From: a virus
Length of the DNA stretch: 51,251 nucleotides
Reading direction: 5' to 3' (one strand)
IMG/VR virus record: IMGVR_UViG_3300045912_000471
Span: 1 to 51,251 of that record
Of the stretch, positions 1 to 51,251 are shown in pieces. Within the stretch, counting starts at the first letter, position 1; each line of letters begins with the position of its first letter. The notes below the pieces were generated by a model. That model saw only the letters and a program-made list of their open reading frames with translations, was not told the origin of the DNA and did no database searches. A program made the position numbers and the translations under genes.

Positions 1-127
1 GGTTATTTTCTTGCCTCTTGGATGATGTTTGATGAAGAACTGGCTACCGAGTTTAAAGGTTCATGGAAAAAGCGTTGGAACTCCAAAAACGATCATCTAG
101 TAAACTTTCAGAAAAGAGTCAAAAAAA
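1..127. repeat. Terminal direct repeat, left copy (contig overlap)
   Basis: Bases 1-127 are identical to 51125-51251. The overlap lies inside one open frame that reads correctly across the join, so the molecule is circular or circularly permuted. 127 is a common maximum assembly k-mer length, so the overlap is more likely an assembly signature than a biological terminal repeat. Confidence 0.95.
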
Positions 128-468
128 TAAGGGTGAACGCGGGGGAGTATAAATCATACGATATGCCCATCGTCCTACATAACATTAAACAAGTGTGGTT
201 TTATTTCGCTTCTCACGATGTGGCAAGGATGGAGGAACTCATTTCTAAATATCTTTTCGGAATCGGTAAGAAGACGAGTTTTGGACAAGGAGAAATAGAA
301 AAATTTGTAATAGAAGCCATAGATCACAATCCTTTTGAGCAAGTAATACGCCCAATTCCCGCAAATATAGATGATGTCAGAAGTGGCAAGCTAAGCGTAT
401 CCCTGATGGGCTGGAAGCCTCCTTATTGGCTGCCACAAAACCAAACTTTTTGCCTTAACCCCTCCTAA
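1..468 (+). CDS. csf3: Csf3-like (type IV Cas5 family) protein, 3' part
   Basis: This is the C-terminal part of a 216-residue protein whose start is at 50942. Csf3 is the Cas5-type RAMP subunit that holds the crRNA 5' end in type IV complexes. I see a lysine followed by SYDMP, then a strand and helix ending in IGKKTSFGQGEIEKF, which is a glycine-rich RAMP-like loop, and near the C-terminus GWKPPYWLP. These match my recollection of Csf3: an IGKK-S-GxG loop and a terminal PPYW motif. No domain search was possible. The gene ends the long operon starting at 42863 and is followed by hairpins at 472-503 and 591-630. Another Cas5-like RAMP is the main alternative. Confidence 0.75.
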   Translation, partial: GYFLASWMMFDEELATEFKGSWKKRWNSKNDHLVNFQKRVKKIRVNAGEYKSYDMPIVLHNIKQVWFYFASHDVARMEELISKYLFGIGKKTSFGQGEIEKFVIEAIDHNPFEQVIRPIPANIDDVRSGKLSVSLMGWKPPYWLPQNQTFCLNPS

Positions 469-5437: not shown

Positions 5438-5647
5438 CTATATTCTGAAAAAAACTTTCAACTTTTCTGTTATTCCAAGCTCCCTATACACTTCCTCCAC
5501 CAAGTTCAAAAGCACCCAACTATCCTTCCCGCCACTGAAAGCCACAAGGACATTATCAAACGTATCAATGATATGTTCTATTCGTTTCTTTGCTTCTGTG
5601 AGTACGTCATTGCCGGTGTAAGATACGCTATCCTGAAATTTAGGCAT
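5438..5647 (-). pseudogene. Truncated IbrA/CysH-like PAPS-reductase family gene
   Basis: The first 69 residues of a PP-loop protein: a helix (DVLTEAKKRIEHIIDTFDNV), the nucleotide-binding VAFSGGKDSWVLL, a second helix, then KVFF and a stop. The intact relative at 47771-48910 continues with FFLDEEVVYES and about 300 more residues, so all substrate-binding parts are missing here. The break lies at a run of seven T (coding strand of 5448-5454). A -1 slip would add about 20 residues ending at 5382 next to the parB-like start, but still not the domain. The ATG at 5647 overlaps the preceding remnant. Probably a decayed gene. Confidence 0.7.
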
Positions 5648-5819
5648 AATAATTATTGTCTTTAATGAAAATCTGCAAACGTTCGGCAGTGGTTTCCGCC
5701 TCATTGTATTTGCGTTTCAAGTATTTGATAAAACCGTTGTAGGCTTGCTGTTGCTCCTCATTCTCAAAAACCAGCGTGGTTTTGAGTGTGTAAGAACCCT
5801 CATTTCTGAATATGTAATG
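5640..5819 (-). pseudogene. 5'-truncated remnant of an unknown gene
   Basis: A frame with no ATG start encodes 59 residues ending in a protein-like helical tail (ENEEQQQAYNGFIKYLKRKY, then AETTAERLQIF) and stops at 5640, overlapping the cysH-like ATG. Immediately upstream in frame is a TAA. The normal-looking composition and the gene-overlap geometry suggest the 3' end of a lost gene. The membrane-protein gene at 5717-6241 runs across it in another frame. Confidence 0.5.
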
Positions 5820-11052: not shown

Positions 11053-11061
11053 AGGTTTGTG

Positions 11062-11763
11062 TTAAATTGATTGAAAAAATATGTTTAAATATGTCAAGCC
11101 ATCCTCGGGGTTTGTTTCCTCAGTGGGCGTTTGTTCAATTATATTTACGATTTCGGTGGTGGGGGCGATGTCTCCTAAATCAAAAGGGGCTTGCAGAGCC
11201 ACATTTCTGATTTGATAGGCATATCGAACCTCCATAAATTCGGGTATCGGGATTTGTGTTTGACTTCTGAAAGTCATTTCAAACTCCTCTCCCTCCGTTC
11301 CCACAACATTCAGGGCTTTGAGTATTTTTTGCCCTCCGATGCCCAGTGTCTGCTCCACAATGTTTTTAAGCAGATGCAAGTAAGGGCTTGTTTTTGCCAC
11401 AATCGTAACAGATACATTGGCAGTTACAAGCTCAGGGGCTTCGGTTTTCTTGTAGTTTGTAATCTGCCCTGACACTTCCACAGGCTCATAGTTCAACTCC
11501 CCTCTGGTTTTGAGTGATCCGCTTTCAACACTCAGCCAATCCAAGTAGATTGTATTGATTCTGACATCCTCACGCTCAAAAATCGTTTGAGCCGGGTAAA
11601 GCCAGATAATTTCTTTACCACTATCCCTGATTGCCTCGATAGCAGCCACAAACTGCTCCTCAGTGGTGATGAGAGCGAGGTCGGGGAAATATCCCAACTC
11701 CACTATCCTCAGACGGATGGCGTTGTAAATGCTTCTTTTTATATCGGCTTCGGGCGTGTACAT
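11062..11763 (-). CDS. Tail-completion/terminator-like protein
   Basis: 233 residues, upstream of sheath, where tail terminator or completion proteins normally lie. It is a soluble mixed alpha/beta protein with a helical N-terminus (EADIKRSIYNAIRLRIVELG) and alternating strand patterns (ELVTANVSVTIVAKTSPYLH, then EVRYAYQIRNVALQ). The family is not recognised directly; position in the neck block is the main evidence. Its start is adjacent to the stop of the morphogenesis gene at 11764. Confidence 0.6.
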   Translation of the reverse strand: MYTPEADIKRSIYNAIRLRIVELGYFPDLALITTEEQFVAAIEAIRDSGKEIIWLYPAQTIFEREDVRINTIYLDWLSVESGSLKTRGELNYEPVEVSGQITNYKKTEAPELVTANVSVTIVAKTSPYLHLLKNIVEQTLGIGGQKILKALNVVGTEGEEFEMTFRSQTQIPIPEFMEVRYAYQIRNVALQAPFDLGDIAPTTEIVNIIEQTPTEETNPEDGLTYLNIFFQSI

Positions 11764-31805: not shown

Positions 31806-31885
31806 TGGCGTGTTCTCCGCCTAAGAGACCTACTCAAAATGAATTACCCCAAAAACAGTTCGGGACTCGCTGTACACATAGGTTG

Positions 31886-31956
31886 AGCAAAAGGTGAGAA
31901 TCGAACTCACACATCCAGCGTGGAAGGCTGGCGTTCTACCATTGAACTACTCTCGC
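31886..31956 (-). tRNA. tRNA-Gly (anticodon TCC)
   Basis: Minus strand. Acceptor GCGAGAG pairs with CTTTTGC (with G-U pairs). D arm contains AGTTCAATGGTAGA, anticodon stem CCAGC/GCTGG with loop CTTCCAC gives anticodon TCC, and T arm is GTGAG-TTCGATT-CTCAC. No CCA is encoded. It reads GGA/GGG glycine codons. A dedicated promoter lies at 32034-32064. The only tRNA I found. Confidence 0.92.
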
Positions 31957-32137: not shown

Positions 32138-33520
32138 TTACCAGTCTTTGATGCTCTGGCTAGAGCCATCGAATAGAAAAGGAATATCGGCTAGAGTGCC
32201 GTTTCGTTGTTTAGCAATGATGAGTTCGCTGTAGCCTTTGCTGTATGCTACTCCTTCCGCATCACTGGTGATGCCGTAGTATTCCGGTCGATAGAGAAAC
32301 CCTACCATATCAGCATCCTGCTCAATGCTTCCTGACTCTCTGAGGTCTGAGAGTTGTGGGCGTTTATCTGCTCTCTGCTCAACGGCTCTACTGAGCTGTG
32401 AGAGGGCAATCACAGGGCAATCCAATTCCTTTGCCAACGCCTTGAGGCTTTTGGAAATATAGCTAATCTCCTGCTCTCTGAGTTGGGTGGCGTAATCGCC
32501 ACGAATGAGCTGAAGGTAATCCACCAGCACCAAAAACTCCGCCTTTGTTTTTCGTCTTTCCAGATGGGCTTTTGCCTTGATTTCTCCCACCGTTTGTGAG
32601 GGCGTATCGTCAATCGTAAAGGGAAGAGCTGATACCCTTTGCAATGCCTCCTCATAACAACGAAAATCATGCTCATTCATATTCTTAGGGTTTTTGAGCT
32701 TATCCATTGGAGCCCATACGCCCAGATAATCCATCTCATCTGCCAAAAGACGCATAAACAGTTCCTCTCGCCCCATCTCCAGAGAGGGAACGAAACACTC
32801 CACTCCTTCCCTCGCTGCTGCTTTGAGGCAAGCAAGCATAAAAGCAGTCTTTCCCATCGCGGGGCGTGCTGCCACAATGATTAGATTTTTTTTCTGCCAT
32901 CCTCCGATGAGATTATTCAGCTCCAAAAGGGGTGTAGGAACACCGTTTGGGGCGTTATTTTTCATCTTTTCTACCAGTCGCTCGTGAAAACGCATCGCAA
33001 TATCGTTACTTCTGAGGGCTTGTTTGCGAAACAACAGCTGCTGTATTTTTGACATTCCTGCGTTCTGCTCATCCAGCAAATCTAATACATCCACACTGTC
33101 CTCATAGGCTCTGGAAGTGATTTTGGAGCTTTCTTTGATGAGTTCCCGCTTGACAGAGAGTTCCAAGACAACACGGCAGTGATACTCCAAGTTTGCAGAT
33201 GAGTTCACTTTGGAAGTGAGTTCAGCTAAATAGTAAGCCCCTCCTGCCGTTTCGAGTTTCCCCTGCTTTGCAAGTTCTGTTTTTACGGTGAGAATGTCTA
33301 TCGGTTTGGAGCTTGTGTGAAGGCTCTGTATCGCATCAAAAATGATTTGATGTTGCGGATTGTAGAAAACCTCTCTGGAGGGTAGCACGGAAAGCATCAG
33401 GTCAGTAGCCCCCTGCTCCAGCATCACCGCCCCAAGGATAGCCTCTTCCAGCTCTGTGGCTTGTGGTTGTACTTTCCCAAGTGCCTCCACATTTGTTGGC
33501 TTTTTAGTCTTGGGTTGCAT
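32138..33520 (-). CDS. dnaB: Replicative DNA helicase, DnaB family
   Basis: 460 residues from the ATG at 33520; a longer frame upstream overlaps the initiator gene and is less likely. The N-terminal domain (ELEEAILGAVMLEQGATDLM, YNPQHQIIFDAIQSLH) binds primase. The C-terminal RecA-like motor has Walker A AARPAMGKT at 217-225, FVPSLEMGREEL, LVLVDYLQLI (Walker B) near 318, and LSQLSRAVEQRADKRP. It unwinds DNA as a hexamer at the phage fork. It overlaps the upstream initiator gene, as in lambda-type O-P modules. Confidence 0.92.
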   Translation of the reverse strand: MQPKTKKPTNVEALGKVQPQATELEEAILGAVMLEQGATDLMLSVLPSREVFYNPQHQIIFDAIQSLHTSSKPIDILTVKTELAKQGKLETAGGAYYLAELTSKVNSSANLEYHCRVVLELSVKRELIKESSKITSRAYEDSVDVLDLLDEQNAGMSKIQQLLFRKQALRSNDIAMRFHERLVEKMKNNAPNGVPTPLLELNNLIGGWQKKNLIIVAARPAMGKTAFMLACLKAAAREGVECFVPSLEMGREELFMRLLADEMDYLGVWAPMDKLKNPKNMNEHDFRCYEEALQRVSALPFTIDDTPSQTVGEIKAKAHLERRKTKAEFLVLVDYLQLIRGDYATQLREQEISYISKSLKALAKELDCPVIALSQLSRAVEQRADKRPQLSDLRESGSIEQDADMVGFLYRPEYYGITSDAEGVAYSKGYSELIIAKQRNGTLADIPFLFDGSSQSIKDW

Positions 33521-34577
33521 ACTTTCTTGGCTTGATGGTGGTGGTTGATTGCGTGGTTTGGGTGGTTTTGACACCTGCAACAAAATCCTGTTGCTCTTTG
33601 AGCTTTGCCTTCCAGTTATACATCCATTCGCCCTCAAAGTCCTGTGGTTCGCCAAAGAACTTTGTGTATTTCATCTTGAATTTTGGATTATCCAGTTGTT
33701 TCTTGTAGGCTTGATACTGAGCTTTAAACTCATCGAGCAGATGATGCCTTGCAAGATGCACAACAGCTTTATCGACATACGCCTGATGCTTTTGGTCAAG
33801 GGTGGGTCTGTCGATGTTGAAAAACTCGTAAATGTCGCCCCTCAAGTCCTTTTCGCTGTTGAGGATGGTTACTTCCTCCTTGAGACGTTGTTGGTTTTTG
33901 TCAGTGTCAATCGGTTCAACTTTGAACTCAAAAGAGCTTTGGGGTTGGTCTGTTTTTGATTTTTCCAAAACTTTTTCTTTTGGATTTTCTTTTTCTTTCT
34001 TCTGTGTATTCTTCTGTATGTAATCTTCTGTTATATCTAAGTGGGTTTTCCCCACTTCCGTAAGTGGCAAATCCCCATTTACGTAAGTGGGTTTTCCCGA
34101 CTTACGTGAGTCTGTAAGTGGCAAATCCCTACTTACTGTAAGTGGGCTTTCCCCACTTACAGAGAAAACTTTATCTAACTCACTGTCTAACAGCGTATGA
34201 TTTCTAAAATAAAAGGTTACACCACGCATCCTGTCGTGGTAGGAACAGTAAAAATACTTTCCCTCGAAAACGTCTTTATCCTTATCCTCCAGAGCTTCAT
34301 CAAAAGCTTTCTTGGATTTGTATTTCAGACAGATTTTGGAGAAAGCTCCCATGAGCTCTTCTTTGGAAAAGTTGAGTTCCTCCGCCCAGCTCTCCCCCTC
34401 TCGGTAGAGCTTATTGTTACAGGGTTCAAGAAACTTGTAGAAACCATCAGGCATTTTGGCAAACCAATAATCTAACTGCTGCATCAGGATTGACGCTGCG
34501 ATACTACCAGATAGGTTTCTGAGTGCTGGAATGTATGGTATGCTTGAACGTGTCAAGGCGAGCGTTTTATTTTTCAT
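33504..34577 (-). CDS. Replication initiator / helicase-loader-like protein
   Basis: 357 residues. The N-terminal 120 residues form a winged-helix-like region (ALRNLSGSIAASILMQQLDY, WAEELNFSKEELMGAFSKIC) as in phage replication proteins. Residues 139-185 are low complexity with repeated PLT units, and this stretch is encoded by the iteron array at 34038-34160. The C-terminal part (VDKAVVHLARHHLLDEFKAQ) is DnaD/DnaT-like and may load the DnaB helicase coded next to it. Its location, internal iterons and neighbour fit a lambda-O-type initiator. No family domain is certain. Confidence 0.7.
   Translation of the reverse strand: MKNKTLALTRSSIPYIPALRNLSGSIAASILMQQLDYWFAKMPDGFYKFLEPCNNKLYREGESWAEELNFSKEELMGAFSKICLKYKSKKAFDEALEDKDKDVFEGKYFYCSYHDRMRGVTFYFRNHTLLDSELDKVFSVSGESPLTVSRDLPLTDSRKSGKPTYVNGDLPLTEVGKTHLDITEDYIQKNTQKKEKENPKEKVLEKSKTDQPQSSFEFKVEPIDTDKNQQRLKEEVTILNSEKDLRGDIYEFFNIDRPTLDQKHQAYVDKAVVHLARHHLLDEFKAQYQAYKKQLDNPKFKMKYTKFFGEPQDFEGEWMYNWKAKLKEQQDFVAGVKTTQTTQSTTTIKPRKYATQD
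34038..34160. repeat. Iteron array, probable replication origin
   Basis: Five copies of TAAGTGG(G) start at 34038, 34061, 34084, 34115 and 34139. Each is followed after a short AT-rich gap by an inverted copy such as CCCACTT or ACTTAC, making a series of small palindromes spaced 23-31 bases. They lie within the initiator gene, beside the helicase gene, the layout of lambdoid origins. Origin function is inferred. Confidence 0.65.
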
Positions 34578-40421: not shown

Positions 40422-40625
40422 ATGAGAATCATCGCCATCGTGAATCACAAAGGAGGAGTAGGCAAAACTACCACCACCCTGAACCTAGGCAAAGCCCTTG
40501 CCCTCTTGGGAAATAAAGTATTACTCATTGACCTCGACCCGCAAGCCAACCTCTCACAGAGCCTCGGTTATGATGACGAAGAACAAACCGTGTATGAGGT
40601 GCTTTTTTATTCATCATTCAAATAA
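40422..40625 (+). pseudogene. Truncated ParA-type ATPase
   Basis: 67 residues with a perfect deviant Walker A ([20 protein letters not shown]) and Walker A' ([20 protein letters not shown]), then a stop. Full ParA proteins run to about 200-400 residues; the Walker B and C-terminal parts are absent. The minus-strand methylase gene ends 2 bases later, so an insertion or deletion probably cut it. It suggests a plasmid-like past. Confidence 0.75.
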
Positions 40626-40627
40626 TT

Positions 40628-41287
40628 TTAATTGTTGTAAGGCTTTTTTAGTAGCCTCCAAATGCCTAATCCATTCATATTGATTTGCCACACTCTGAAA
40701 TACTGAAGCCTCAGCGTGTCCCCGTTGCAAACCTCCCCCTTCATTCCGTTGATAAAGAAATTCAAGGCACACAGCTTGGCGGTCGTTTGGTTCAAGTCGC
40801 AGCCAACAAAAATATTATTGGGTGCTTGCTCAGCGTATGCTATCAGAGTTCTGCCAGAGCCTACCGCCGGATCATTTACTTTTTGTCCTGTGGTTTCCTT
40901 ATCCGCCCCCTGAAGCATTACCATTAGCTTGCAAATCTCCATGGGTGTAAAAAACTGCCCTAATCTCTCATCTGCAAAATACTCCTCGTAATACTCCCCC
41001 AGCGGGTCGGTGTATGGATTGTGCCAGATGTACTCCATAAAAGAGGCAAGTATTTTGGTAAATACCTCTAAATCCTTTTGAGAGTAGCCTTTTATGGTTT
41101 CACTGTATAGCTTTTCGTTTTCCTCATCCTTTGCCAGCATCCCGGTCATCAGGTTGGTTCTGTGAAAGGTGCAGAGGCAGAGGGTTAAAAAATCATCAAA
41201 TACTTTGTGTCTGGAGAGGTGTTGAAAGTGGTCAAAACCTTTCGCTATCTCGTTACTATTGTGCTTTAGCCTTTGGGAATGTTTCAT
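40628..41287 (-). CDS. N6-adenine DNA methylase-like protein
   Basis: 219 residues from the ATG at 41287, which overlaps the upstream stop. It has ADERLGQFFTPMEICKLMVM and VNDPAVGSGRTLIAYAEQAP, the AdoMet-binding motif of HsdM-type N6 methylases, and FVGCDLNQTTAKLCALNFFI. The NPPY/F catalytic motif is not present before the stop, so the enzyme may be short-form, need a partner, or be inactive. It ends next to the cut parA. Confidence 0.75.
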   Translation of the reverse strand: MKHSQRLKHNSNEIAKGFDHFQHLSRHKVFDDFLTLCLCTFHRTNLMTGMLAKDEENEKLYSETIKGYSQKDLEVFTKILASFMEYIWHNPYTDPLGEYYEEYFADERLGQFFTPMEICKLMVMLQGADKETTGQKVNDPAVGSGRTLIAYAEQAPNNIFVGCDLNQTTAKLCALNFFINGMKGEVCNGDTLRLQYFRVWQINMNGLGIWRLLKKPYNN

Positions 41288-41586
41288 TTCGTGTGTACTC
41301 TTTTGTGTCCGTTCAAAGCGTTTTGAGTGGGAAAACTCTTTTGGCACTCATCACATTCAAAATCTCCCTTTACGCAAGAAAGGGGAGGGGTCGGTTGGGT
41401 TTCTACCACACCCAACATCTTTTTTTCATAGTCTTGCAGTAGTTGGAAAATACTGAATGAATGTTGATGCCTTGACGCTAATATTTTCAGTTCAGTGATG
41501 GCGTAATTCTCGGAGGCGTTATCACCTTTTTTTCTTGCCTCATACCACGTTTCTAATGCCTGTGTTACTCTATAATCTAATATCAT
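41284..41586 (-). CDS. C2H2 zinc-finger protein
   Basis: 100 residues. The C-terminus carries one canonical C2H2 finger: CDEC, F after three residues, L five residues later, then H-x3-H (from FECDECQKSF to HKRVH), the eukaryotic spacing C-x2-C-x12-H-x3-H, unlike the shorter spacing of bacterial Ros-type fingers. The N-terminal 75 residues are helical (VTQALETWYEARKKGDNASE). It overlaps the methylase gene, so the two are coexpressed. It could bind DNA or a protein partner. Confidence 0.75.
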   Translation of the reverse strand: MILDYRVTQALETWYEARKKGDNASENYAITELKILASRHQHSFSIFQLLQDYEKKMLGVVETQPTPPLSCVKGDFECDECQKSFPTQNALNGHKRVHTK

Positions 41587-42752: not shown

Positions 42753-42764
42753 ATTCGTTTAACT
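42753..42764 (-). promoter_or_regulatory. GTTAAACGAA-type recurrent site, copy 4
   Basis: AGTTAAACGAAT on the minus strand, just downstream of the -7 box of the 42769-42799 promoter. Confidence 0.5.
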
Positions 42765-42768
42765 ACTA

Positions 42769-42799
42769 CAAATTTAATAAAAATAACTGAAATTGCAAA
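42769..42799 (-). promoter_or_regulatory. Promoter for gene 42164-42727
   Basis: Minus strand: TTTG (42796-42799), 19-base spacer, TAAATTTG (42769-42776). It is back to back with the + promoter at 42828-42858. Confidence 0.65.
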
Positions 42800-42827
42800 T
42801 TTTTTGCAAATTAAATTTGCAATTTTT

Positions 42828-42858
42828 TTTGCAATTAAAATTATTTTGTCTAGATTTG
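42828..42858 (+). promoter_or_regulatory. Promoter of the type IV-like operon
   Basis: TTTG (42828-42831), 19-base spacer, TAGATTTG (42851-42858), and the ATG of the first gene only four bases later, which predicts a leaderless or nearly leaderless transcript. No other good promoter was seen between here and the operon end at 468, so this may drive about 8.7 kb including csf1-, csf2- and csf3-like genes. Confidence 0.65.
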
Positions 42859-42862
42859 TAGT

Positions 42863-43219
42863 ATGAAAAAAGATAATCCTTTCAGAAAGTATTTAACTGA
42901 AGAAGACCTCCTGCAAGAGGCGGTGATGAAGTACATTGCCTTAGAATATCCTTGGGTGTTTGCCTATCACACGACCAACGAGGGCAGGCGTACTGCTTTT
43001 GAACGCTACAAGTTTAAGGTGCTTGGGGGGTGTGCCGGCATACCCGACATTCATATCCCCTCCAAAAACTTGTGGATAGAACTGAAAACCAAAAAAGGCA
43101 AACTGGAGGACACCCAAAAAGAAACCATTGTCAAGCTCAGAGAGTCCGGGCAGACGGTGGAGGTGTGCTTCGGATTTGACCAAGCCAAAGCTGTCATTGA
43201 TAAATATCTAGATGTATGA
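42863..43219 (+). CDS. VRR-NUC domain nuclease
   Basis: 118 residues fitting the VRR-NUC fold: EEDLLQEAVMKYIALEYPWV, a middle GGCAGIPDIHIPSKNLWIEL with the conserved G-x-PD and (I/L)ELK, then KTKKGKLEDTQKETIVKLRE. This makes a single PD-(D/E)XK-type catalytic site, Asp in PD, Glu-x-Lys in ELK. VRR-NUC proteins cut branched or flap DNA in replication and repair. It leads the type IV-like operon and overlaps the next gene. Confidence 0.87.
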   Translation: MKKDNPFRKYLTEEDLLQEAVMKYIALEYPWVFAYHTTNEGRRTAFERYKFKVLGGCAGIPDIHIPSKNLWIELKTKKGKLEDTQKETIVKLRESGQTVEVCFGFDQAKAVIDKYLDV

Positions 43220-43545
43220 GTATTATTTTTAAACCAAAGTTTCGCTTGTCCGTCGCTGACAAGCAAATGGTGGGAGTGTACGCCAACGGGGTGTTTCTCG
43301 CCAACGCCGCCCTTTATGACAAATACAATGGACAAGGCTTCATTGTGGAAGAAGTGGGAACTGGTGTCTTTCTGATGAAGCCTGACGAAGACGGTTTCCG
43401 CATCTCCACCAAACGGAGACAGTTCTTTTCCAGAAAGCTTTCCAAAAGAATTTTTGAGGTTTTTGGAAGTGAAAAAGTCAAAGCCACCAGAATCTATTTT
43501 GAGATTGACCATACCGGAGTCTTTAACTTTGTAGAAGCGAAATGA
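43216..43545 (+). CDS. Unknown 109-residue protein
   Basis: Overlaps both neighbours by 4 bases. Mixed strand/helix (KFRLSVADKQMVGVYANGVF, GFIVEEVGTGVFLMKPDEDG) with a basic centre (TKRRQFFSRKLSKR) that could bind nucleic acid. No family recognised. Confidence 0.65.
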   Translation: MSIIFKPKFRLSVADKQMVGVYANGVFLANAALYDKYNGQGFIVEEVGTGVFLMKPDEDGFRISTKRRQFFSRKLSKRIFEVFGSEKVKATRIYFEIDHTGVFNFVEAK

Positions 43546-43895
43546 TCATCACCCCCACCTCCAAAAAGTTTTACGTTTTGTTGTGCCTTGCCAACGAAAT
43601 GGATAAGTACGCTGATAACCTTGCCGAGCTTGTCGAACCCAACAGCGATATGCAAGTGCAACTCCTGAGAGCTGCAATGGACAATAGGGAACTGGTGAAC
43701 CTGATTAAAAAAGATTTCAGAGAGGAGACTGCTGTGGTAATTGATACGGTGGGAGTGGGGCTGTCGAGTTTCGTGGAGTTCTGTTTAGAGGACACCAAAC
43801 GCCTGACGCTTTTAAGTCAGATAATGACAGAAATTAAGGATAAGAAAATCACGCTGAATAAACTCTGCAAGAAATTAGGCTATGAAGTTAAATAG
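43542..43895 (+). CDS. Unknown helical 117-residue protein
   Basis: Helical throughout: LLCLANEMDKYADNLAELVE, LLRAAMDNRELVNLIKKDFR, LLSQIMTEIKDKKITLNKLC. Overlaps both neighbours. A small helical protein two genes before the csf1-like gene could play the part of the Cas11-like small subunit, which otherwise is not seen, but nothing beyond size and fold type supports this. Confidence 0.6.
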   Translation: MIITPTSKKFYVLLCLANEMDKYADNLAELVEPNSDMQVQLLRAAMDNRELVNLIKKDFREETAVVIDTVGVGLSSFVEFCLEDTKRLTLLSQIMTEIKDKKITLNKLCKKLGYEVK

Positions 43896-44196
43896 AACGC
43901 AAAAGAAGTTTTTACAATACGCTTTGGCATTGATGTTCTCCGAAAAGCCCCTTCAGATTGAGTTGCGTTGGAACGCTACCAAAGAGATGTATGAACCCGC
44001 TCACCTCTGGCTCGGAGACCCTAAGGACGCTCCCAAGAGTGCTGCTGAGGAGGATTTCAGCGACCTCGTTCTAGCGGAGTTTACGAAGGTTTACAGAAAG
44101 TACTGCTCGTGCTTGCAATACACAATGAAAAGAAAAATAATACAAAAAACCGCAGAAATATCAAATCTAAAGAAAGCTCATGAAAATCATTGCTAA
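43882..44196 (+). CDS. Unknown 104-residue protein before csf1
   Basis: Contains QYALALMFSEKPLQIELRWN, an AHLWLGDPKDAPKSAAEEDF segment and a basic C-terminal helix (MKRKIIQKTAEISNLKKAHE). It overlaps the previous gene by 14 bases and the csf1-like gene by 17. No family recognised. Confidence 0.6.
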   Translation: MKLNRTQKKFLQYALALMFSEKPLQIELRWNATKEMYEPAHLWLGDPKDAPKSAAEEDFSDLVLAEFTKVYRKYCSCLQYTMKRKIIQKTAEISNLKKAHENHC

Positions 44197-44878
44197 GCAT
44201 CTCAATCAAAATAATCTCAAAGCCAAGATACATCAAAACATTGATGCGTTGTGTGCTTTCACGGGTCAGGCGATCACTGAAGGGGTATTACTTCACGATT
44301 GCATCAGTGATGTTTTTACGGATTTTGAGTATATCAAATACCCGTCTGATTATGTGTCTGTGGAAACGGCACTGTGCATTGCTGAAGTCATCCAGACAGA
44401 AAAAGGGAAATATAATGCTCTGAGAAGCTACAGCTATTATGCTGATGAAAATGTGTTGAGGTTTCTGAAAAGGGAAGAGATTTTGGAGCTTTTGCTCAAT
44501 ATCCCCTCCGTTCCGTTTCACATTGCTGTATCGTTCAATTTTAAGAAACATACAAGTTTTAAGACTCATTGTAATATCAATACTGATCAGTTTATTATCA
44601 CCACAGACCTTTATCAGGTAGAATTTAAAAAATCCTATATTCTTGAATTTCTTCCAATCCTGCAAAAATGGTATAGGGTGCCTCCAAACAAAGTATCTAC
44701 CTCTACACAGCCTACATACTTCACAAAAGAAGAAATCCTTACAGGCAAGTGTAACATGAAAAAAGTGGATGAATATGGATTGGATCAGTGGTACATGGAA
44801 ACCACAATCCTGCAACATTATAGAAATACCTTAATATTTGAGTTAATTGTTCACCTTTTAAATAAAAATGTATGTTAA
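44180..44878 (+). CDS. csf1: Csf1-like type IV large-subunit protein
   Basis: 232 residues. Known Csf1 proteins, from memory, begin with a zinc-finger block (CxxCG..I..G....S..FTD......S..VC..C). Here residues 25-66 keep its frame: CAFTGQAITEGVLL, then DVFTDFEY and S-x-YVSVETALC, but three of the four cysteines are replaced, so zinc binding is probably lost. A second Csf1-like block, VPFHIAVSFNFKKHTSFKTH at 111-130, matches the family's PF...S.xKH pattern. In type IV complexes Csf1 caps the backbone. It overlaps csf2 by 7 bases. Remote; no search run. Confidence 0.65.
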   Translation: MKIIAKHLNQNNLKAKIHQNIDALCAFTGQAITEGVLLHDCISDVFTDFEYIKYPSDYVSVETALCIAEVIQTEKGKYNALRSYSYYADENVLRFLKREEILELLLNIPSVPFHIAVSFNFKKHTSFKTHCNINTDQFIITTDLYQVEFKKSYILEFLPILQKWYRVPPNKVSTSTQPTYFTKEEILTGKCNMKKVDEYGLDQWYMETTILQHYRNTLIFELIVHLLNKNVC

Positions 44879-46164
44879 GAGTTTATGTAAAATTTACAGC
44901 TATCGAACCTATTCATACCGGTTCTGACCAAAACTTAGGAACACTCAGAACGCTGAGGCGTGAAAAAACGTATGTTTCTAACGTTAAAACAGTGAAATCA
45001 AGATTCAGAAAAGAACAAAAGAAACTGCAATTACAAGCCATTGCCCTGCTGCTCCTTAGGCTTTGGGACAAGATGGACAACAAAGCAAGAGTAACTATTT
45101 ATGAGGAAATAGCATCTAAATTATTGTATGCTTCCACCGCCTCCACGAAGGAGAGTTTTCTTCAGATTCTTGCAGAGAAGTTAGACATCAGAGAAATATC
45201 TACTGACAAAAACAGAAGGTTTGATGTCGTGGATATATTGGAATTGTTTGATGATTATGAGCTTCTTGAACTTGTTAGAAGAAACAGCCAGTACATTGTG
45301 GCTCTCTTTAGAAAAATCAAAGACAATAACTTCTCTTGGAAAAAGAACACTGACAGCTCCAAAGTCTCCCGAAACACCACCGTTTCGGATGCCAACGCTA
45401 CTGAAAGCCCTGAGGTGATTATCAGTAATCAGCTCATAGAAATCCTCTCACAACCCTTTGAGGAAGAAAATATGGTAGGATATGTGGATTATGTCCCCGC
45501 CATCTCCGGTAACAGCATCAGAGGGCTACTGAGGAGACTTGTGATGGAGGATTTCTGTAAAAAAACAGGTATCACATCTCTGTCTCCTGAATGGTATCAC
45601 AGGCTGTTTACGGGAGGGACACTCTCAGAGAGTACAGGGTATGAAGACATAGGAAAACGACTTGAACTTATTAGAATGTGTCCGCCGATTGGCTTGTTCG
45701 GTTCTGCCATCGGCAATCAGACGATACAAGGAGCCTTGAAAGTAGGAGCTCCAAAACTCATCTGCTCCGAAAATAAAAATGGTATGGATTCATATCATAA
45801 TTTCATAGATATTATTTTCGGAACGCGTCTGGATTCCTCTAAGACAGAAACTGCTATAATGATAGTGGGGGAGGATAAAGAAACCCACCAGATGAAGTAT
45901 GAGTACGAGGTGTTCGTCCCCGGTTCTGTATTTGAAATGACTTTAGCAATCGATACTGAAGAACCAATTTTAAAATCTGCTTTTTATACAATGTTGGAAC
46001 TGTTTTCTGAGCATAGTTTTATTTTGGCTAAAAGTAGTGTAGGTCACGGAAATATAAAAATCGATAGCATAGTAGGTGGCGAATCAAAAAACTTACTATA
46101 CCTATACAGTGCGTATTTAAACGAGAACAAAGAAGTTATCCTAAAATACTTCTCCAATGAATAA
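44872..46164 (+). CDS. csf2: Csf2-like (type IV Cas7) backbone protein
   Basis: 430 residues. The RAMP fold opens VYVKFTAIEPIHTGSDQNLG (residues 4-23). A Cas7-type loop, YVDYVPAISGNSIRGLLRRL, is at about 204-223. LFGSAIGNQTIQGALKVGAP at about 275-294 matches the Csf2 segment I recall (LFGAAFGN...GKLKVG). These identify Csf2, the subunit that multiplies along the crRNA in type IV complexes. Residues 30-190 hold a helical insertion with a basic N-terminal part. A Csm3-like Cas7 is the alternative. Strongest of the three csf calls. Confidence 0.82.
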   Translation: MLRVYVKFTAIEPIHTGSDQNLGTLRTLRREKTYVSNVKTVKSRFRKEQKKLQLQAIALLLLRLWDKMDNKARVTIYEEIASKLLYASTASTKESFLQILAEKLDIREISTDKNRRFDVVDILELFDDYELLELVRRNSQYIVALFRKIKDNNFSWKKNTDSSKVSRNTTVSDANATESPEVIISNQLIEILSQPFEEENMVGYVDYVPAISGNSIRGLLRRLVMEDFCKKTGITSLSPEWYHRLFTGGTLSESTGYEDIGKRLELIRMCPPIGLFGSAIGNQTIQGALKVGAPKLICSENKNGMDSYHNFIDIIFGTRLDSSKTETAIMIVGEDKETHQMKYEYEVFVPGSVFEMTLAIDTEEPILKSAFYTMLELFSEHSFILAKSSVGHGNIKIDSIVGGESKNLLYLYSAYLNENKEVILKYFSNE

Positions 46165-46933
46165 TTACACTTTTGAAGAATGGCGTGAATATTATTTACT
46201 TCACGCCTCTTCCGCAACTTTTCGTAAAAAAGTAAACAAAGCACGAGAGGCTATCGCCAACTTTCTGGACTTGGGAATCAAGTCTTATGTATCCGTATCA
46301 GGAGGCAAAGACTCTACAGCTATGATGCATCTTGTTTGGCAGACGGATGCTTCTGTGGCGGTGATGAGCGAAAAAGATGACATGGACTTCCCGGGAGAAT
46401 TAGAGTACATGCACAAGCTTCAGCAGCTTTACAATCTCAATCTCACAATCATTCAGCCAGATGTTTCGCTTTGGGATATAGTAAAAAAGTTTGATTTTAC
46501 GGAAGATATTCACAGCAGGGGTACTGAGTTCTCAGATGAGTTTTTCTACGGACTTATTGAAGAGTTTCAATATAAAAACAACTATAAAGCGGTTTTTCTG
46601 GGACTTAGAGCGGAGGAAAGCAAAGGTAGAATGCACAACTACGCTATCAATCGTTCTATTTATTACAACGAGTCAGAGAGACATCTGGTGTGTCAGCCTA
46701 TTGCTACTTGGACAGGAATTGATGTAATGGCTTATTTGTTTGAAAATGAAGTACCTATTCTGGATGTGTATTTCAAAACGAAATTTGTTTTAGCACCCCA
46801 CGAGATACGCAAGTCATGGGCTCTACCCTCGCATCAGAGCAGTAAAGGACAAGCCCTTTGGCTGAAATACTATTACCCTGAGATATTTCAAAAACTTGCC
46901 GTCATCAATCCTAAAATCAGATCTTACGTATGA
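46157..46933 (+). CDS. cysH: CysH-like PAPS reductase family protein
   Basis: 258 residues. The PP-loop ATP-binding motif SVSGGKDSTAMMHL is at 46-59 and GLRAEESKGR at 149-158 is the sulfate/nucleotide-site motif of PAPS reductases, followed by WTGIDVMAYLFENEVPILDV. A true assimilatory reductase ends with an ECGLH cysteine motif; I see none, so sulfite reduction is doubtful and nucleotide chemistry more likely. It overlaps csf2 by 8 bases, as in type IV-B loci, where the role of cysH is unsolved. Confidence 0.85.
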   Translation: MNNYTFEEWREYYLLHASSATFRKKVNKAREAIANFLDLGIKSYVSVSGGKDSTAMMHLVWQTDASVAVMSEKDDMDFPGELEYMHKLQQLYNLNLTIIQPDVSLWDIVKKFDFTEDIHSRGTEFSDEFFYGLIEEFQYKNNYKAVFLGLRAEESKGRMHNYAINRSIYYNESERHLVCQPIATWTGIDVMAYLFENEVPILDVYFKTKFVLAPHEIRKSWALPSHQSSKGQALWLKYYYPEIFQKLAVINPKIRSYV

Positions 46934-47853
46934 TTTATATAGGCTACCCCAAAGACAAGAAAAGCGAAATAGTAAACGCTTACATAAAAGAGAACGGCAT
47001 TGAAAAGGTTGTGGTGTTAGGTCCTGCGATGTTCTCTTTTCAGTGTATGTATGAAAATGTGGATTATCCAAATTTAATCAAATACGTGTTCTACTACAGG
47101 CTTTTGTCATACATTGATACCAATACGCTTGTGGTGGTGAATGAGTGTCTCCAAAATAAAAAAAGGTATGACCTTACGTTTAATTGTGTGAGAAACTTTT
47201 TGAATCAAACAAATCACCAAATAATTTTCCAGTATCTGCCCATCATTGAGACAAGAGAGGAGTTGATGACAGTGATAGATTTTGATACTAAAAGTCAATG
47301 GAGAAGGATGTCCTTTAATGCCTTGGTGGATTCCGGCTTCGACTTCTCGAAGCACATCACTATTCATGAATCCTTTAAATATCCTGAAATAATACCCCTG
47401 CTTGTAGAGACGAGTAAGGAAACAAAAGCGAAATACGAGGAAGAGAAAGCAAGATTATTTAGTGATTTAGGACAAAAAGACCCTCATACACTCCCTAGAA
47501 ATCTCCATCTAGTCGGCTGGAGGGACAAAAAGAAACACGCTGAGCAGCTCGACTATACTTTCCTTGTAAGGAATGATAGAGCAAAAATAAAAAATGCTCA
47601 GACATACGGGGAAGAAGAGTATCAGGGAACATACTGTATGTTTGACATACCTCACGACTTCATAGAACTTGTAAACTTCTTTGCCCTCTCAGAGCAACAA
47701 CAAATCACCGTATTACTCAATGAAATAAAAGTAGATACATTCTACTACGAAAGAATCAAAAAATGGCTAAATGAAATCAATTATGTTTGTACAAAAATAT
47801 CTCAAAGAGACATGTCTGGAGGCGACCAAGAAAAGATTGAAGTTTATCTTTGA
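46930..47853 (+). CDS. Unknown 307-residue operon protein
   Basis: Not recognised. It begins with a Rossmann-like alternation (MIYIGYPKDKKSEIVNAYIK, then KVVVLGPAMFSFQ) and has a second core near NTLVVVNECLQNKKRYDLTF. The C-terminal half has DPHTLPRNLHLVGWRDKKKH and an acidic/helical end. It sits between two PAPS-reductase-like genes, overlapping the first by 4 bases and the ibrA-like gene by about 70-83, so it is part of the same unit. A partner of one of those enzymes is inferred. Confidence 0.65.
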   Translation: MIYIGYPKDKKSEIVNAYIKENGIEKVVVLGPAMFSFQCMYENVDYPNLIKYVFYYRLLSYIDTNTLVVVNECLQNKKRYDLTFNCVRNFLNQTNHQIIFQYLPIIETREELMTVIDFDTKSQWRRMSFNALVDSGFDFSKHITIHESFKYPEIIPLLVETSKETKAKYEEEKARLFSDLGQKDPHTLPRNLHLVGWRDKKKHAEQLDYTFLVRNDRAKIKNAQTYGEEEYQGTYCMFDIPHDFIELVNFFALSEQQQITVLLNEIKVDTFYYERIKKWLNEINYVCTKISQRDMSGGDQEKIEVYL

Positions 47854-48910
47854 CGCTTTTGAGAACATCATTGTATCTATATCAGGAGGCAAGGATTCTA
47901 CTGTACTAGCTCACTTAGCACTTGAGGAAGCTCATGAGAGAGGCAGAAAAATAGGTTTATTTTTCTTAGATGAAGAGGTAGTTTATGAAAGTACTATTGA
48001 ACAAATAGAATACCTGATGAACCTCTACCCAAAGAATACAATGCCCTACTGGTTACAAATGGAGTTTAACCTTACAAATGCCACAAGCGTGGATGAGGGG
48101 CAACTTTTGTGCTGGGAGGCGGGAAAACATAAGGTTTGGATGCGTCCTAAAAAACAATACTCTATCCATCAGAGAATGTGGTCACTGGAGAGTCAAACCG
48201 TCAGAGATAAAAACAAAGGCTTCGGGTTCTATGATGTCATTGAAAATTTTGAAAGATGCTTTGAAAATACAGCGTTTCTGGTGGGGTTGAGAGCTGCCGG
48301 AGAAAGCCCAAACCGATGGAGAGCCGTAACAAAAAATCCGATTGATATACAAGGTCATTCAGTATTTTGGGGAACTAATAAGGGCAAAAACCAAGTACTC
48401 TACCCTCTTTATGATTGGAACTTTCACGATGTATGGAAGTATATCTTTGACGAAAACCTTAAATATTCAAAAATCTATGATTATCAGTTCAAGAAAGGTT
48501 TCGGTATTTCGGAAATGAGGGTGAGTTCTCTTATCCACGAAAAAAGTTTTAAGAGTATTGTGGAACTGCCAGAGTTTGAACCGAAAACATATGATAAACT
48601 CATAAAAAGACTTAAAGGGATTTCCTTCGCTCAGGAACTGGGGAAAGATAGGACAATGTTCAAGGTTCAAAAACTACCCCAAAATTTCAATTCTTGGACA
48701 GCTTACAGAGACTTTCTTCTCGAAACCTACCAAGACACTACCAAAATAAAAATCTTTCAACAGAGGTTTGCAAAACACCTTAATAATGAATATGTGGCAA
48801 GGCAACAATGTAGGCAGTTAGTTCTTAATGATTACGAAAATAACCTGCCCGTTGATAACAAGCCAGACCCAAGACAAGAACTTATTAACTTTTACCTAGA
48901 AGTATTATGA
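47771..48910 (+). CDS. ibrA: IbrA-like PAPS-reductase family protein (DUF3440)
   Basis: 379 residues; the start may be the ATG at 47771 or 47783. The first 45 residues, KYLKETCLEATKKRLKFIFD then VSISGGKDSTVLAHLA, match IbrA-type proteins. FFLDEEVVYES at 64-74 and VGLRAAGESPNRW at 171-183 are further family motifs, and the C-terminal 170 residues fit the DUF3440 region. IbrA acts with the ParB-like IbrB, coded here next door (4-base overlap); in E. coli the pair controls Eib surface proteins. The biochemical reaction is unknown. Confidence 0.78.
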   Translation: MKSIMFVQKYLKETCLEATKKRLKFIFDAFENIIVSISGGKDSTVLAHLALEEAHERGRKIGLFFLDEEVVYESTIEQIEYLMNLYPKNTMPYWLQMEFNLTNATSVDEGQLLCWEAGKHKVWMRPKKQYSIHQRMWSLESQTVRDKNKGFGFYDVIENFERCFENTAFLVGLRAAGESPNRWRAVTKNPIDIQGHSVFWGTNKGKNQVLYPLYDWNFHDVWKYIFDENLKYSKIYDYQFKKGFGISEMRVSSLIHEKSFKSIVELPEFEPKTYDKLIKRLKGISFAQELGKDRTMFKVQKLPQNFNSWTAYRDFLLETYQDTTKIKIFQQRFAKHLNNEYVARQQCRQLVLNDYENNLPVDNKPDPRQELINFYLEVL

Positions 48911-49425
48911 AACAAGAAATATTATTTCCCTGCCTTAATACGATACTCGTACCACGTGAGAACGTGATAGCTAATACGTACAACCCTAATCATGTATCTC
49001 CTGACAAGATGAATTTGCTCAAGCAAAGTATTCTGGATAATGGGTTCTGCTTTCCCATCGCTACCATTTGGGACAAGGATATAGAAAAACACGTTATCAT
49101 AGACGGTTTTCATAGAAGATTGATTTGTGAACCTGAATGGCTTGATATTCCCGTGTGTCCTATTGTCGTGTTACCCCACGACATTGCCCAGAGAATGATA
49201 GCAACTATTCAGTTCAACAAAGCCAGAGGCGTGCATCAAGTAGATTTAGATGCAGAAGTAATCAGAAAGCTGTTGGAACAAGGCTTGTCTGAAGAGGAAG
49301 TATCTGAAAAGTTGGGGATAGAGATAGAAGCAGTACATCGCTACAAGCAACTCACAGGAATAGCCTCTCTTTTCGCTAAAGCTCAATACTCAACCGCTTG
49401 GGAAATGGTTAGCGATGGAAATTAA
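48907..49425 (+). CDS. ibrB: IbrB-like ParB-superfamily protein
   Basis: 172 residues. NTYNPNHVSP at 23-32, VIIDGFHRRL at 63-72 and NKARGVHQVD at 104-113 define the ParB/Srx N-domain; a helical region (LLEQGLSEEEVSEKLGIEIE) and the terminal YSTAWE follow. ParB-domain proteins can bind CTP or cut DNA; which applies here is unknown. It partners the IbrA-like gene and is a paralogue of the gene at 4888-5379. Confidence 0.82.
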   Translation: MKQEILFPCLNTILVPRENVIANTYNPNHVSPDKMNLLKQSILDNGFCFPIATIWDKDIEKHVIIDGFHRRLICEPEWLDIPVCPIVVLPHDIAQRMIATIQFNKARGVHQVDLDAEVIRKLLEQGLSEEEVSEKLGIEIEAVHRYKQLTGIASLFAKAQYSTAWEMVSDGN

Positions 49426-49789
49426 AACGGTTACGCTCGATCAGATAACCCACATTACAAGTCATCCCGAAACCAAATCCAATGTGATGACTTTTTCAAA
49501 AAAAGCATCGTATCTCGGTTTGTTTATAGACAACGAAATAGTGGGTTGTGTGGGGTATATAGAGTATAAAAACTACATCAAGCTGAAAGCAGGGTTTGTA
49601 CTCCCCAAGTATCGGAACAAAGGCTATTATAGCAAGTTGTGTGAGGAAAGAATAAAGATAGTAGGATGACACAAACCTTTGTATGCAAATTGTACCAAAC
49701 ACGCTTTGCCTTATCACCTCAAACAAGGGGCAGAGATTGTAAAAATTTATAAAGCACCTTCTTATAAAATTAAATATGAGCCAAAGTAA
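49415..49789 (+). pseudogene. GNAT acetyltransferase interrupted by one in-frame TGA
   Basis: Residues 1-84 are a GNAT fold: LGLFIDNEIVGCVGYIEYKN, then KAGFVLPKYRNKGYYSKLCE with an acetyl-CoA loop (YRNKGYY). A single TGA at 49667-49669 stops it after KIVG. The same frame continues for 39 good residues (HKPLYANCTKHALPYHLKQG, then EIVKIYKAPSYKIKY) to a TAA at 49787-49789 that overlaps the next gene's start by 14 bases, as for other genes here. Other genes end normally at TGA, so wholesale recoding is unlikely: either a recent nonsense mutation, readthrough, or a sequencing error. Confidence 0.75.
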
Positions 49790-50423
49790 ATGGGAATACG
49801 GTGGTGTTTACCACCAATACAACATGCAGGATGTTATTGACTTGCCTAATAACAGCAAGTTGAAAGTTTGTGATTTGACTAAAGAGATGCCTGATTTTAT
49901 GTTACAGGCAGATACGCTATTCATTGACCCGCCCTGCTCCTTAGGAAATCTGAAGACATTTCACACGAAAGCGGACAGAAAACTGGAATACACTTTTGAT
50001 GCTTTTACAAAAGCATTATTTGAGAGAATAGAGCAAATAAACCCGAAGCATCTGTTTATAGAGGTATTCAAAAGTAACAAAGATGCTTTTTTAGAGATTG
50101 TCAAAGCAAAATACAAAAGCGTTTCGGTGTATGAATCCTTCTATTATAACAAAAAACAAAATAAATGTTTCATCCTCCACGCCACCAACGAAACGGAAAA
50201 CCAATACTATGAAGCTCTCCAAAACATTGATGAAGAGAAGGCTATCAAATGGATTTGCGAAAACCATAAATTTGATTGCATCGGAGACCTTTGCATGGGA
50301 CGGGGGCTTGTAGGCAAATATGCTTATTTGAATAAAAAGAGCTTTGCAGGTACGGAACTGAATCCCAAAAGATTAGCTGTTTTAGTTGATTTTATCAAGA
50401 AACAAACAAACAATGGACATTAA
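49776..50423 (+). CDS. DNA methyltransferase with DPPC motif
   Basis: 215 residues. FIDPPCSLGN at 49-58 is a catalytic DPPY-type motif (motif IV), and GDLCMGRGLVGKY at 170-182 with SFAGTELNPKRL at 189-200 gives the AdoMet-binding motifs I and X-like in permuted order. This is a beta-class N6-adenine or N4-cytosine methylase pattern. It could mark the phage genome or protect it from its own operon's nuclease. It overlaps the nuclease start by 11 bases. Confidence 0.75.
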   Translation: MSQSKWEYGGVYHQYNMQDVIDLPNNSKLKVCDLTKEMPDFMLQADTLFIDPPCSLGNLKTFHTKADRKLEYTFDAFTKALFERIEQINPKHLFIEVFKSNKDAFLEIVKAKYKSVSVYESFYYNKKQNKCFILHATNETENQYYEALQNIDEEKAIKWICENHKFDCIGDLCMGRGLVGKYAYLNKKSFAGTELNPKRLAVLVDFIKKQTNNGH

Positions 50424-50970
50424 GAAACCTACTATCACCGAGCTCTTGGAAATGCTCAACAAGCCTGCTTTGCTGTATTGGGCAAACAACTTGGGGCTAA
50501 AGGGTGTATCTCTTCAAAAGCACCAACAGGAGCTTCGGAAAACAGGCACTTCACTACACAGACAAATACAAGGGTATGTGGAAAAAGGAGAACCTTTTGA
50601 AAATCCTAATGACCAGGAGCGGTGGCAGATATTTTGCCGAAACAAAGAAATCCTAACGATAGAGAAAAGTATTGAAACCGAATGGTTCGTGGGTCGCTAT
50701 GATGCAAAGTTACGAATTGCAGATACAACATACCTCTGTGATTTCAAAAGCTCTAAGGGCAGAAAAGTATATTTTGAAAATATCTTACAGCTAGTAGCCT
50801 ACCGAATGGCAGAGCCGGACTGTAAGATAGGAATCATAAAAATACCTGATTTCGTGATGATTCCTATACAAATTACAGACTTTCAGGTTTGGGAGTCTTG
50901 CATAAAATGTTTACATTATCTCTATAAAATTAAAAAGACGTATGAATTACAAGATCACATTCAATATTAA
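50413..50970 (+). CDS. RecB/Cas4-like PD-(D/E)XK nuclease
   Basis: 185 residues from the ATG at 50413. Motifs in order: GTSLHRQIQGYV (His49) near 45-56, E at about 90, YDAKLRI with Asp97, LCDFKSSKG with D110-x-K112, and ILQLVAY at 124-130. This is the Cas4/RecB exonuclease pattern (H, D, E/D-x-K, QxxxY). The cysteines needed for a Cas4 iron-sulfur cluster are not evident. It overlaps csf3 by 29 bases. Could process DNA for the phage or the type IV-like complex. Confidence 0.78.
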   Translation: MDIKKPTITELLEMLNKPALLYWANNLGLKGVSLQKHQQELRKTGTSLHRQIQGYVEKGEPFENPNDQERWQIFCRNKEILTIEKSIETEWFVGRYDAKLRIADTTYLCDFKSSKGRKVYFENILQLVAYRMAEPDCKIGIIKIPDFVMIPIQITDFQVWESCIKCLHYLYKIKKTYELQDHIQY

Positions 50971-51251
50971 GTCAGCTATATGCTTTATAGATAAACCCGT
51001 TTTTGACGGTATTTTAGCCTACTGCCACATGAAGGCTAAAAATCCTGACTTTGCTCAAAAACTAATTCTTTCAAAAGAAGAATTAGAAGATTTTAATGAT
51101 TTGCCAATAATCAGACACCAAGACGGTTATTTTCTTGCCTCTTGGATGATGTTTGATGAAGAACTGGCTACCGAGTTTAAAGGTTCATGGAAAAAGCGTT
51201 GGAACTCCAAAAACGATCATCTAGTAAACTTTCAGAAAAGAGTCAAAAAAA
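50942..51251 (+). CDS. csf3: Csf3-like (type IV Cas5 family) protein, 5' part
   Basis: The first 103 residues of the protein finished at 1-468. It opens with a RAMP strand (NYKITFNIKSAICFIDKPVF) leading to DGILAYCHM, similar to the DALLAYA-type start of Csf3. A spacer helix (LSKEELEDFNDLP) and the SWMMFDEELATEFKGSWKKR region follow. The start overlaps the nuclease gene by 29 bases. The frame is continuous across the join of 51251 with 128. Confidence 0.75.
   Translation, partial: MNYKITFNIKSAICFIDKPVFDGILAYCHMKAKNPDFAQKLILSKEELEDFNDLPIIRHQDGYFLASWMMFDEELATEFKGSWKKRWNSKNDHLVNFQKRVKK
51125..51251. repeat. Terminal direct repeat, right copy (contig overlap)
   Basis: Exact copy of bases 1-127. 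Joining 51251 to 128 keeps the Csf3-like reading frame open. Confidence 0.95.

Follow-up and report, generated by a model that had tools for sequence, protein, structure and literature searches.

A stretch of viral DNA of 51,251 nucleotides (IMG/VR record IMGVR_UViG_3300045912_000471, positions 1–51,251), called here the window at its full length, contains a row of overlapping genes that almost certainly encodes a type IV-B-like Csf effector of the clustered regularly interspaced short palindromic repeats (CRISPR) systems. The open reading frames (ORFs) of csf1, csf2, cysH and csf3 were located where a preliminary description of this DNA had put them (Table 1). Because 127 bp at one end of the window recur exactly at the other, the unit is a circle of 51,124 bp and csf3 crosses its join. 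Through this join, the genes from 42863 to 468 overlap their neighbours by 4–83 bp (one overlap assumes a TTG start), with a single gap of 106 bp. The single overlapping operon of csf1, csf2, csf3 and cysH reported earlier stands as to its genes and overlaps; however, cysH does not directly precede csf3, as six more genes lie between them. The phage promoter once ascribed to the operon is unproven, since a repeated 66-bp element (42757–42822) is closer to a gene that begins at 42727 and is read leftward. As had been proposed, the virus is a myovirus: the window matches tail sheath (7.6e-18), tape measure (2.3e-48), baseplate wedge (1.2e-20), portal (1.9e-57) and terminase (5.9e-23) genes.

The best PADLOC matches of all three Csf proteins are type IV Csf families (E-values in Table 1), and NCBIfam names the same three families, each under its curated cut-off (Csf1 3.6e-08, Csf2 0.0015, Csf3 3.7e-09). 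In addition, a profile of two Csf2 sequences reaches the solved IV-B Csf2 (7jhy) at 6.6e-5. From a 23-sequence alignment, AlphaFold produced a Csf2 model with a mean predicted local distance difference test (pLDDT) score of 81.5 and a predicted template modelling (pTM) score of 0.74, superseding a poor three-sequence run (pLDDT 50.7). This model aligns with chain a of 7jhy at a Z-score of 18.6, with a root-mean-square deviation of 3.1 over 220 residues, and with IV-A Csf2 at Z up to 19.3, which confirms, in a predicted structure, the type IV Cas7 fold; structural comparison to a library of viral structures gave nothing at E 0.001 or better. The assignments of Csf1 and Csf3 are supported by their profiles. 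The preliminary Csf calls, tested for repeat-associated mysterious protein (RAMP) folds and for best matches to unrelated families, held on this evidence.

Within type IV, these profiles come together with a CysH-like protein, encoded in the operon, that carries an SGGKDS loop and lacks ECGxH, presumably the motif of the catalytic cysteine; the earlier attribution to the IV-B gene set is thereby borne out. The window is also like IV-B in having no array, Cas6 or adaptation genes; a separate cas11 gene, a further IV-B feature, is missing, and its domain sits in Csf2 instead. Neither the DinG helicase, Cas6/Csf5 and array of IV-A nor the Cas10-like large subunit with an HD domain of IV-C was found, the large subunit being the 232-aa Csf1. 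The initial remark that no array, Cas6 or DinG is visible agrees with array scans and with searches for PF10040 and PF13307, all negative in the window. Cas6 PF10040 was found in none of 27 records including the window, and neither the DinG C-terminal helicase PF13307 nor Cas1 PF01867 in any of the 15 contigs with the fused Csf2 described below, many of which are fragments. Assembly into an RNA-bound Csf2/Cas11 filament is an IV-B trait that would be predicted for this system as well.

Table 1 Genes of the csf operon in the window. L-numbers are labels of loci collected for comparison.
Feature	Position	Strand	Evidence
Four small genes heading the overlapping row	42863..44196	+	First is a VRR-NUC nuclease (VRR_NUC 1.1e-7); successive overlaps as far as csf1: 4, 4, 14 and 17 bp
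csf1 (Cas8-like large subunit), 232 aa	44180..44878	+	PADLOC Csf1_0_IV 5e-19; TIGR03114 3.6e-08, below cut-off; 52% identity to L001 Csf1
csf2 (Cas7) with inserted Cas11, 430 aa	44872..46164	+	Insert between residues 33 and 208; PADLOC typeIV_Cas7 2.2e-41, typeIV_Cas11 1.9e-6
Helical Cas11-like domain within csf2	45007..45354	+	Model residues ~46–161
cysH-like PP-loop enzyme, 258 aa, without ECGxH	46157..46933	+	PAPS_reduct 8.4e-21; 48% identity to L011 CysH
307-aa protein, first gene of the cassette	46930..47853	+	No Pfam match at E 1; relatives at 9 viral loci
DUF3440 PP-loop protein, 379 aa	47771..48910	+	PAPS_reduct 1.7e-12, DUF3440 3.2e-9, phrog_2302 4e-81; 67% identity to L056
ParB-like protein	48907..49425	+	phrog_2159 8.1e-43
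Short GNAT acetyltransferase-like protein, 84 aa	49415..49669	+	Pfam Acetyltransf_1 1.1e-5
Methyltransferase-like protein, closing the cassette	49776..50423	+	No clear family match of its own; aligns with L056, L055 and L019 homologues
Exonuclease-like protein	50386..50970	+	phrog_298 exonuclease 2.1e-8; phrog_1706 'CRISPR/Cas system associated' 8e-4
csf3 (Cas5), N-terminal part, crossing the circle join	50942..51251	+	Joined ORF 216 aa; 62% identity to L001 Csf3
csf3 (Cas5), C-terminal part	1..468	+	PADLOC Csf3_0_IV 2.9e-25 over the C-terminal 155 residues

The Cas11-like insert of Csf2

In loci with a separate cas11, this gene, where found, sits between csf1 and csf2; in the window these two overlap by 7 bp and therefore leave no space for it. 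The window Csf2 measures 430 aa, against a profile length of 272–344 for the matched type IV Cas7 models, and its residues 65–154 match the PADLOC type IV Cas11 profile. Cas11 matches at the corresponding insert were obtained for L001 (1e-7), L008 (3.4e-14), L016 (6.4e-14) and L047 (6.8e-16). As an earlier cas11 hidden Markov model (HMM) had included fused sequences and was circular for the insert, we relied on an HMM trained exclusively on 14 stand-alone Cas11 proteins. This HMM matches the insert in 15/15 fused Csf2 proteins at 33.7–75.1 bits, the window protein being the weakest (33.7 bits over the whole protein, residues 63–148), and hhalign aligned the inserts with stand-alone Cas11 at a probability of 99.5. 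The insert begins after residue 31–40 (32 in the window) and is 139–179 aa long. In the Csf2 model its helices (47–66, 77–87, 93–103, 119–123 and 128–161) are flanked by strands at 30–43 and 197–209. On these alignments, Csf2 very probably embeds a Cas11 domain. The preliminary picture of the operon was thus right about Csf2 and overlooked both this domain and the accessory cassette.

A decayed, non-functional remnant would be a very improbable reading of this locus. The system has no nuclease subunit, array or Cas6, and the kin locus L062, where the csf operon adjoins the cassette described below, has shortened csf2 and csf3 frames; however, all operon genes of the window are intact and tightly overlapping, and residues are conserved across the 15 fused viral Csf2 proteins.

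Relatives were sought by scanning IMG/VR with successive Csf2 queries. The search for the same operon in other viruses, suggested at the outset, returned 14 further contigs of the fused form, plus contigs with separate cas11; the ratio of the two forms is biased, because fused proteins served as seeds for most queries. Each of the 15 fused Csf2 proteins collected comes from a viral contig, though a terminase family match was obtained in only four of these contigs; the other viral calls rest on the IMG/VR listing, and in L013 also on capsid and portal genes. A first scan of genome contigs gave no match. Among 14 csf2 loci in the species-genome collection, no ORF had both Csf2 and Cas11 matches (L029 is truncated at the edge of its contig); one of them, L033, from a metagenome-assembled genome (MAG), encodes a 473-aa Csf2 with a long N-terminal part without a Cas11 match. 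A csf2 match was found in 58 plasmid records, all three of those examined having a separate cas11, and in one of 50,697 phage records.

A tree of 41 Csf2 sequences, built from columns beyond the insert, separates the 15 fused proteins from all others at a branch supported 100/100. This clade lies beside viral loci with a separate cas11, most of which have cysH, and a locus on a Thermococcus plasmid, in a tree without labelled IV-A, IV-C, IV-D or IV-E references. For L019 and L053, in which the expected motif is missing, a different motif set the cut; L029, L031, L049, L057, L058, L059, L062 and L066 were left out of the tree. As for kinship, L012 equals L011, and close kin are L038/L039, L048/L049/L050, L055/L057/L058, L056/L059/L062 and L065/L066; counts over 27 records leave out L012, L049, L057, L058 and L066. 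So far, the fused Csf2–Cas11 clade appears to be restricted to viruses.

Three of the collected loci deserve mention in their own right. L006 (4729–8362) belongs to Skermania phage SPI1 (KR011061 Orf40–44) and holds complete csf1, cas11, csf2, csf3 and cysH, deposited as hypothetical proteins. L065 (13924–15341) has a tandem pair of csf3-like genes in a viral IV-B locus, downstream of the accessory cassette. In L027 (9483–12115), a type IV-like csf locus of Peptococcaceae precedes genes that show B12-binding and radical-SAM features.

Published work is cited here, by PubMed Central number, from excerpts of its text. Carriage by a phage, implied earlier to be a novelty, is not one, because virus-borne IV-B is already in print: in Fuxiviridae, a family of archaeal viruses, where it comes with CysH and a two-repeat mini-array (PMC10848311); and 'some phages and prophages' are said to carry type IV (PMC11656645). 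The Fuxivirus IV-B, from viruses of Bathyarchaeia, shares with the window a CysH-like protein beside csf3; it differs in its archaeal virus carrier, its mini-array, and a Cas11 listed as a protein with its own tree, no fusion being mentioned in the excerpts (PMC10848311). The operon of Mycobacterium sp. JS623 (7jhy; PMC7937560) is alike in its Csf1, Csf2, Csf3 and Cas11 parts, in its Csf2 fold and in the lack of an array or Cas6, whereas it has a separate cas11 and lies on a megaplasmid. Skermania phage SPI1 carries its five genes in a row in a cultured phage, but with a separate cas11 and a Csf2 on a distant branch of the tree. Cas7 and Cas11 are united in a single polypeptide in the fused effectors of III-E (Cas7-11) and III-I (Cas7-11i) of the 2025 classification (PMC12669027); these have several fused Cas7 domains, in contrast to one Cas11 within one Csf2, in type IV, with separate Csf1 and Csf3. 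No Csf2–Cas11 fusion in type IV was found in the excerpts of the literature searched, whose coverage of primary type IV diversity papers is incomplete. The fused clade, the exchangeable slot and the link to the cassette thus appear new.

The cysH slot and the accessory cassette

The SxGKDS loop is present in 13/13 aligned CysH proteins and ECGxH in none, and the window CysH is, by its sequence, in line with the published IV-B CasCysH, which is described as lacking the catalytic cysteine (PMC8175902). Of the 14 other fused contigs, 12 carry a CysH; none was found anywhere on those of L008 (28.9 kb) and L035 (39.9 kb). The gene that follows csf2 in L008 codes for a methyltransferase-like protein. 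The L035 slot protein has a homologue with 40% identity in the separate-cas11 locus L024, from a Massilibacteroides MAG; the sole functional match of the two is to queuine tRNA-ribosyltransferase PHROG_887 (0.0067 for L035, 0.00071 for L024). The slot has also changed its occupant within cysH-bearing loci: Csf1, Csf2 and Csf3 of the window are closest to those of L001 (52, 48 and 62% identity, with the same ranking among 10 loci), but its CysH is nearer to that of L011 (48%) than to that of L001 (only 27%). These alignments show the gene in the cysH slot to be exchangeable among relatives.

Between cysH and csf3, the window encodes the 307-aa, DUF3440, ParB-like, GNAT-like, methyltransferase-like and exonuclease-like proteins, the last probably of the PD-(D/E)XK fold, a name we assume from its motif. 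We call cassette the 307-aa, DUF3440, ParB-like and methyltransferase-like genes. The L056, L055 and L019 homologues of the methyltransferase-like protein match methylase families under Pfam cut-offs, and the joint profile matches a DpnA-like methyltransferase at 6e-4. By name, we take the DUF3440 and ParB-like pair to be IbrA-like and IbrB-like: as in IbrA/IbrB, a DUF3440 PP-loop gene adjoins a ParB-like gene, whereas the pair of the window sits in a csf operon with 307-aa and methyltransferase-like genes.

Relatives of the 307-aa protein occur at nine viral loci, with the order 307-aa, DUF3440, ParB-like in eight and the methyltransferase-like gene next in seven; L060 and L068 have a weak methyltransferase match upstream only, and L068 ends inside the 307-aa gene. 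It is nearly an even question, leaning slightly to the negative, whether the cassette stands on its own, as a module for DNA modification or regulation that came to lie in the same variable region by chance. Four of the nine loci have no csf gene in the examined stretch, and their contigs gave no csf2 match in a search that had no positive control; DUF3440 relatives are present in 189 of the 50,697 phage records (0.37%; E limit 1e-20) against one for csf2; and the window itself has a second, partial pair far from the csf operon, at 4888–5704 on the minus strand (a DUF3440 fragment at 5438–5704 beside a ParB-like ORF at 4888–5385, identified by eye). Against such independence, the cassette directly adjoins csf genes in the other five loci, in two gene orders other than that of the window; of these five, L063 and L064 are contigs already found through csf2 (L056 and L059), and L065 and L066 are close kin. 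Moreover, full-length DUF3440 (E <1e-100) is found on 8/27 csf contigs, or 5/24 excluding the window and two contigs found through the cassette, versus 0.37% of phage records; the binomial P of 3e-8 ignores kinship, L056 and L059 of the five being close kin. In haloarchaeal plasmids, too, DUF3440 and ParB-like genes lie near IV-B genes.

Carrier genome and host

A search of the phage collection with the first 12 kb of the window gave no near match. Over the whole window, TANNTTTG, which we take to be the Bacteroidota -7 motif, occurs in 75 copies versus 49 expected, and 0/100 shuffles reach 75; this excess suggests a Bacteroidota host for the phage. One copy, at 42851–42858, is immediately 5' of the first ATG of the gene row. 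The phage encodes a tRNA-Gly (TCC) at 31885–31956 on the minus strand. At 40422–41586, a 67-aa ParA-like ORF, seen by eye, an N6-methylase fragment on the opposite strand (N6_Mtase 8.3e-15) and an adjoining C2H2 zinc-finger protein (1.1e-9) mark a possible recombination scar.

Guide RNAs, modifying enzymes and the possible role of viral IV-B

Array scans of the window found no CRISPR array. Tandem stem-like repeats (TAAGTGGG...CCCACTTA) at 34038–34166, within the ORF 33504–34577, are not one: their copies are ~23–31 nt apart, so that spacers would not fit. Clear arrays occur on two of the 15 fused contigs, L013 and L016, and on none of 11 separate-cas11 viral contigs scanned, some of them partial. 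In L013, an 11.2-kb contig on which capsid, protease and portal genes also lie, 11 repeats at 10416–11106 follow csf1–csf2[Cas11]–csf3–cysH by ~1 kb. The L016 contig (L083, IMGVR_UViG_3300009506_000044) unites two CRISPR types in one virus, having a four-repeat array from 3348, a Cas12f at 3591–4895 (PADLOC 1.2e-74) and a fused IV-B operon. As its array adjoins Cas12f and is distant from the csf operon, we did not retain it as an IV-B array; it more likely serves Cas12f. Two- and three-copy repeat matches on L011, L016, L018, L035, L048 and L050 were provisionally taken as chance or coding repeats, and a two-repeat mini-array there is possible.

These arrays bear on RNA-guided interference, in which CRISPR RNAs (crRNAs) of a host type I/III or phage array would be loaded to silence rival or host genes as in IV-A, with CysH as a helper only. 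The L013 array, which belongs to a member of the same clade and shares its contig with genes for capsid and portal, speaks for it, as does the two-repeat mini-array of the Fuxivirus IV-B (PMC10848311). However, no array was recognised in the window and 12 of the 14 other fused contigs, the few short matches in L011, L018 and L035 being set aside, the array of the L016 contig is beside Cas12f, and Cas6 PF10040 is missing from 27/27 records. Nor did any of 14 spacers match the 138 collected loci over more than 19 nt, and three of them gave no match, or 19 nt at most, in the phage collection. The 32-nt L013 repeat is itself found on eight viral contigs (L097–L104): the eighth is L013's own, and the other seven, with one or two exact copies each, show no csf gene in the examined stretch. 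We consider guided interference unlikely, at about one chance in four.

Alternatively, the filament could be a sponge that takes up crRNAs or small RNAs unspecifically and so blocks host RNA-guided defence, CysH being secondary. This was proposed for the solved IV-B complex, which binds heterogeneous RNA of ~55–60 nt (PMC7937560), and would suit a window without array or Cas6. It leaves unexplained why CysH is retained in 12 of the 14 other fused contigs, and why the other two have an enzyme-like gene in the slot, and we hold it to be improbable.

The explanation that we favour, by a modest degree of confidence, is a phage IV-B effector, of a so far virus-only variant with embedded Cas11, that directs a modifying enzyme. 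Going beyond the genes themselves, the Cas11 domain recognised by sequence in Csf2, the predicted Csf2 fold, the PP-loop CysH without ECGxH and the exchange at the slot, we propose that Csf1, several Csf2–Cas11 and Csf3 would come together on a short RNA, with one Cas11 supplied by every backbone subunit (1:1). Because the window phage has no array, this RNA would come from host or phage transcripts or from crRNAs. The ribonucleoprotein (RNP) might then hold nucleic acid for, or recruit, the small enzyme encoded alongside (CysH, or a methyltransferase-like protein in one relative), which would modify the held nucleic acid or make a nucleotide product by ATP alpha-hydrolysis, an activity proposed for CasCysH (PMC8175902). 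The outcome could be counter-defence or the exclusion of rival elements. It has been suggested that IV-B function might not involve target recognition (PMC11656645). Taken alone, the enzyme-directing mechanism is tentative, and we would sooner doubt it than assert it.

Several points weigh against our explanation. One cysteine column, outside an ECGxH context, is common to 7/13 CysH proteins including that of the window. The methyltransferase-like gene of L008, a reading we assume from its motif, matches Pfam Cons_hypoth95 at 0.0053, below the cut-off. A transglycosylase assignment for L035 and L024 could not be taken as established, since a PDB profile search gave E >1 only and hhalign to four cellular tRNA-guanine transglycosylases a probability of 2.2. 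The cassette, found on four viral contigs where no csf2 was found, therefore need not work with the RNP. The solved IV-B complex contains Csf1, Cas11, Csf2 and Csf3 on heterogeneous RNA, without CysH (PMC7937560). Finally, the enzyme-directing model draws on sequence and one predicted structure.

In a broader and rather unlikely generalisation, viral IV-B systems could be RNA-addressed or RNA-scaffolded modification machines, with Cas11 built into the Csf2 backbone in a virus-only lineage, a swappable enzyme (CysH, methyltransferase-like, possibly transglycosylase-like), a cassette that extends their chemistry and, in some, arrays of their own. The fused Csf2–Cas11 would be a further route to Cas7 and Cas11 as one protein, and a compact three-subunit viral clade with an exchangeable enzyme slot and one adjacent array offers a handle on IV-B function.

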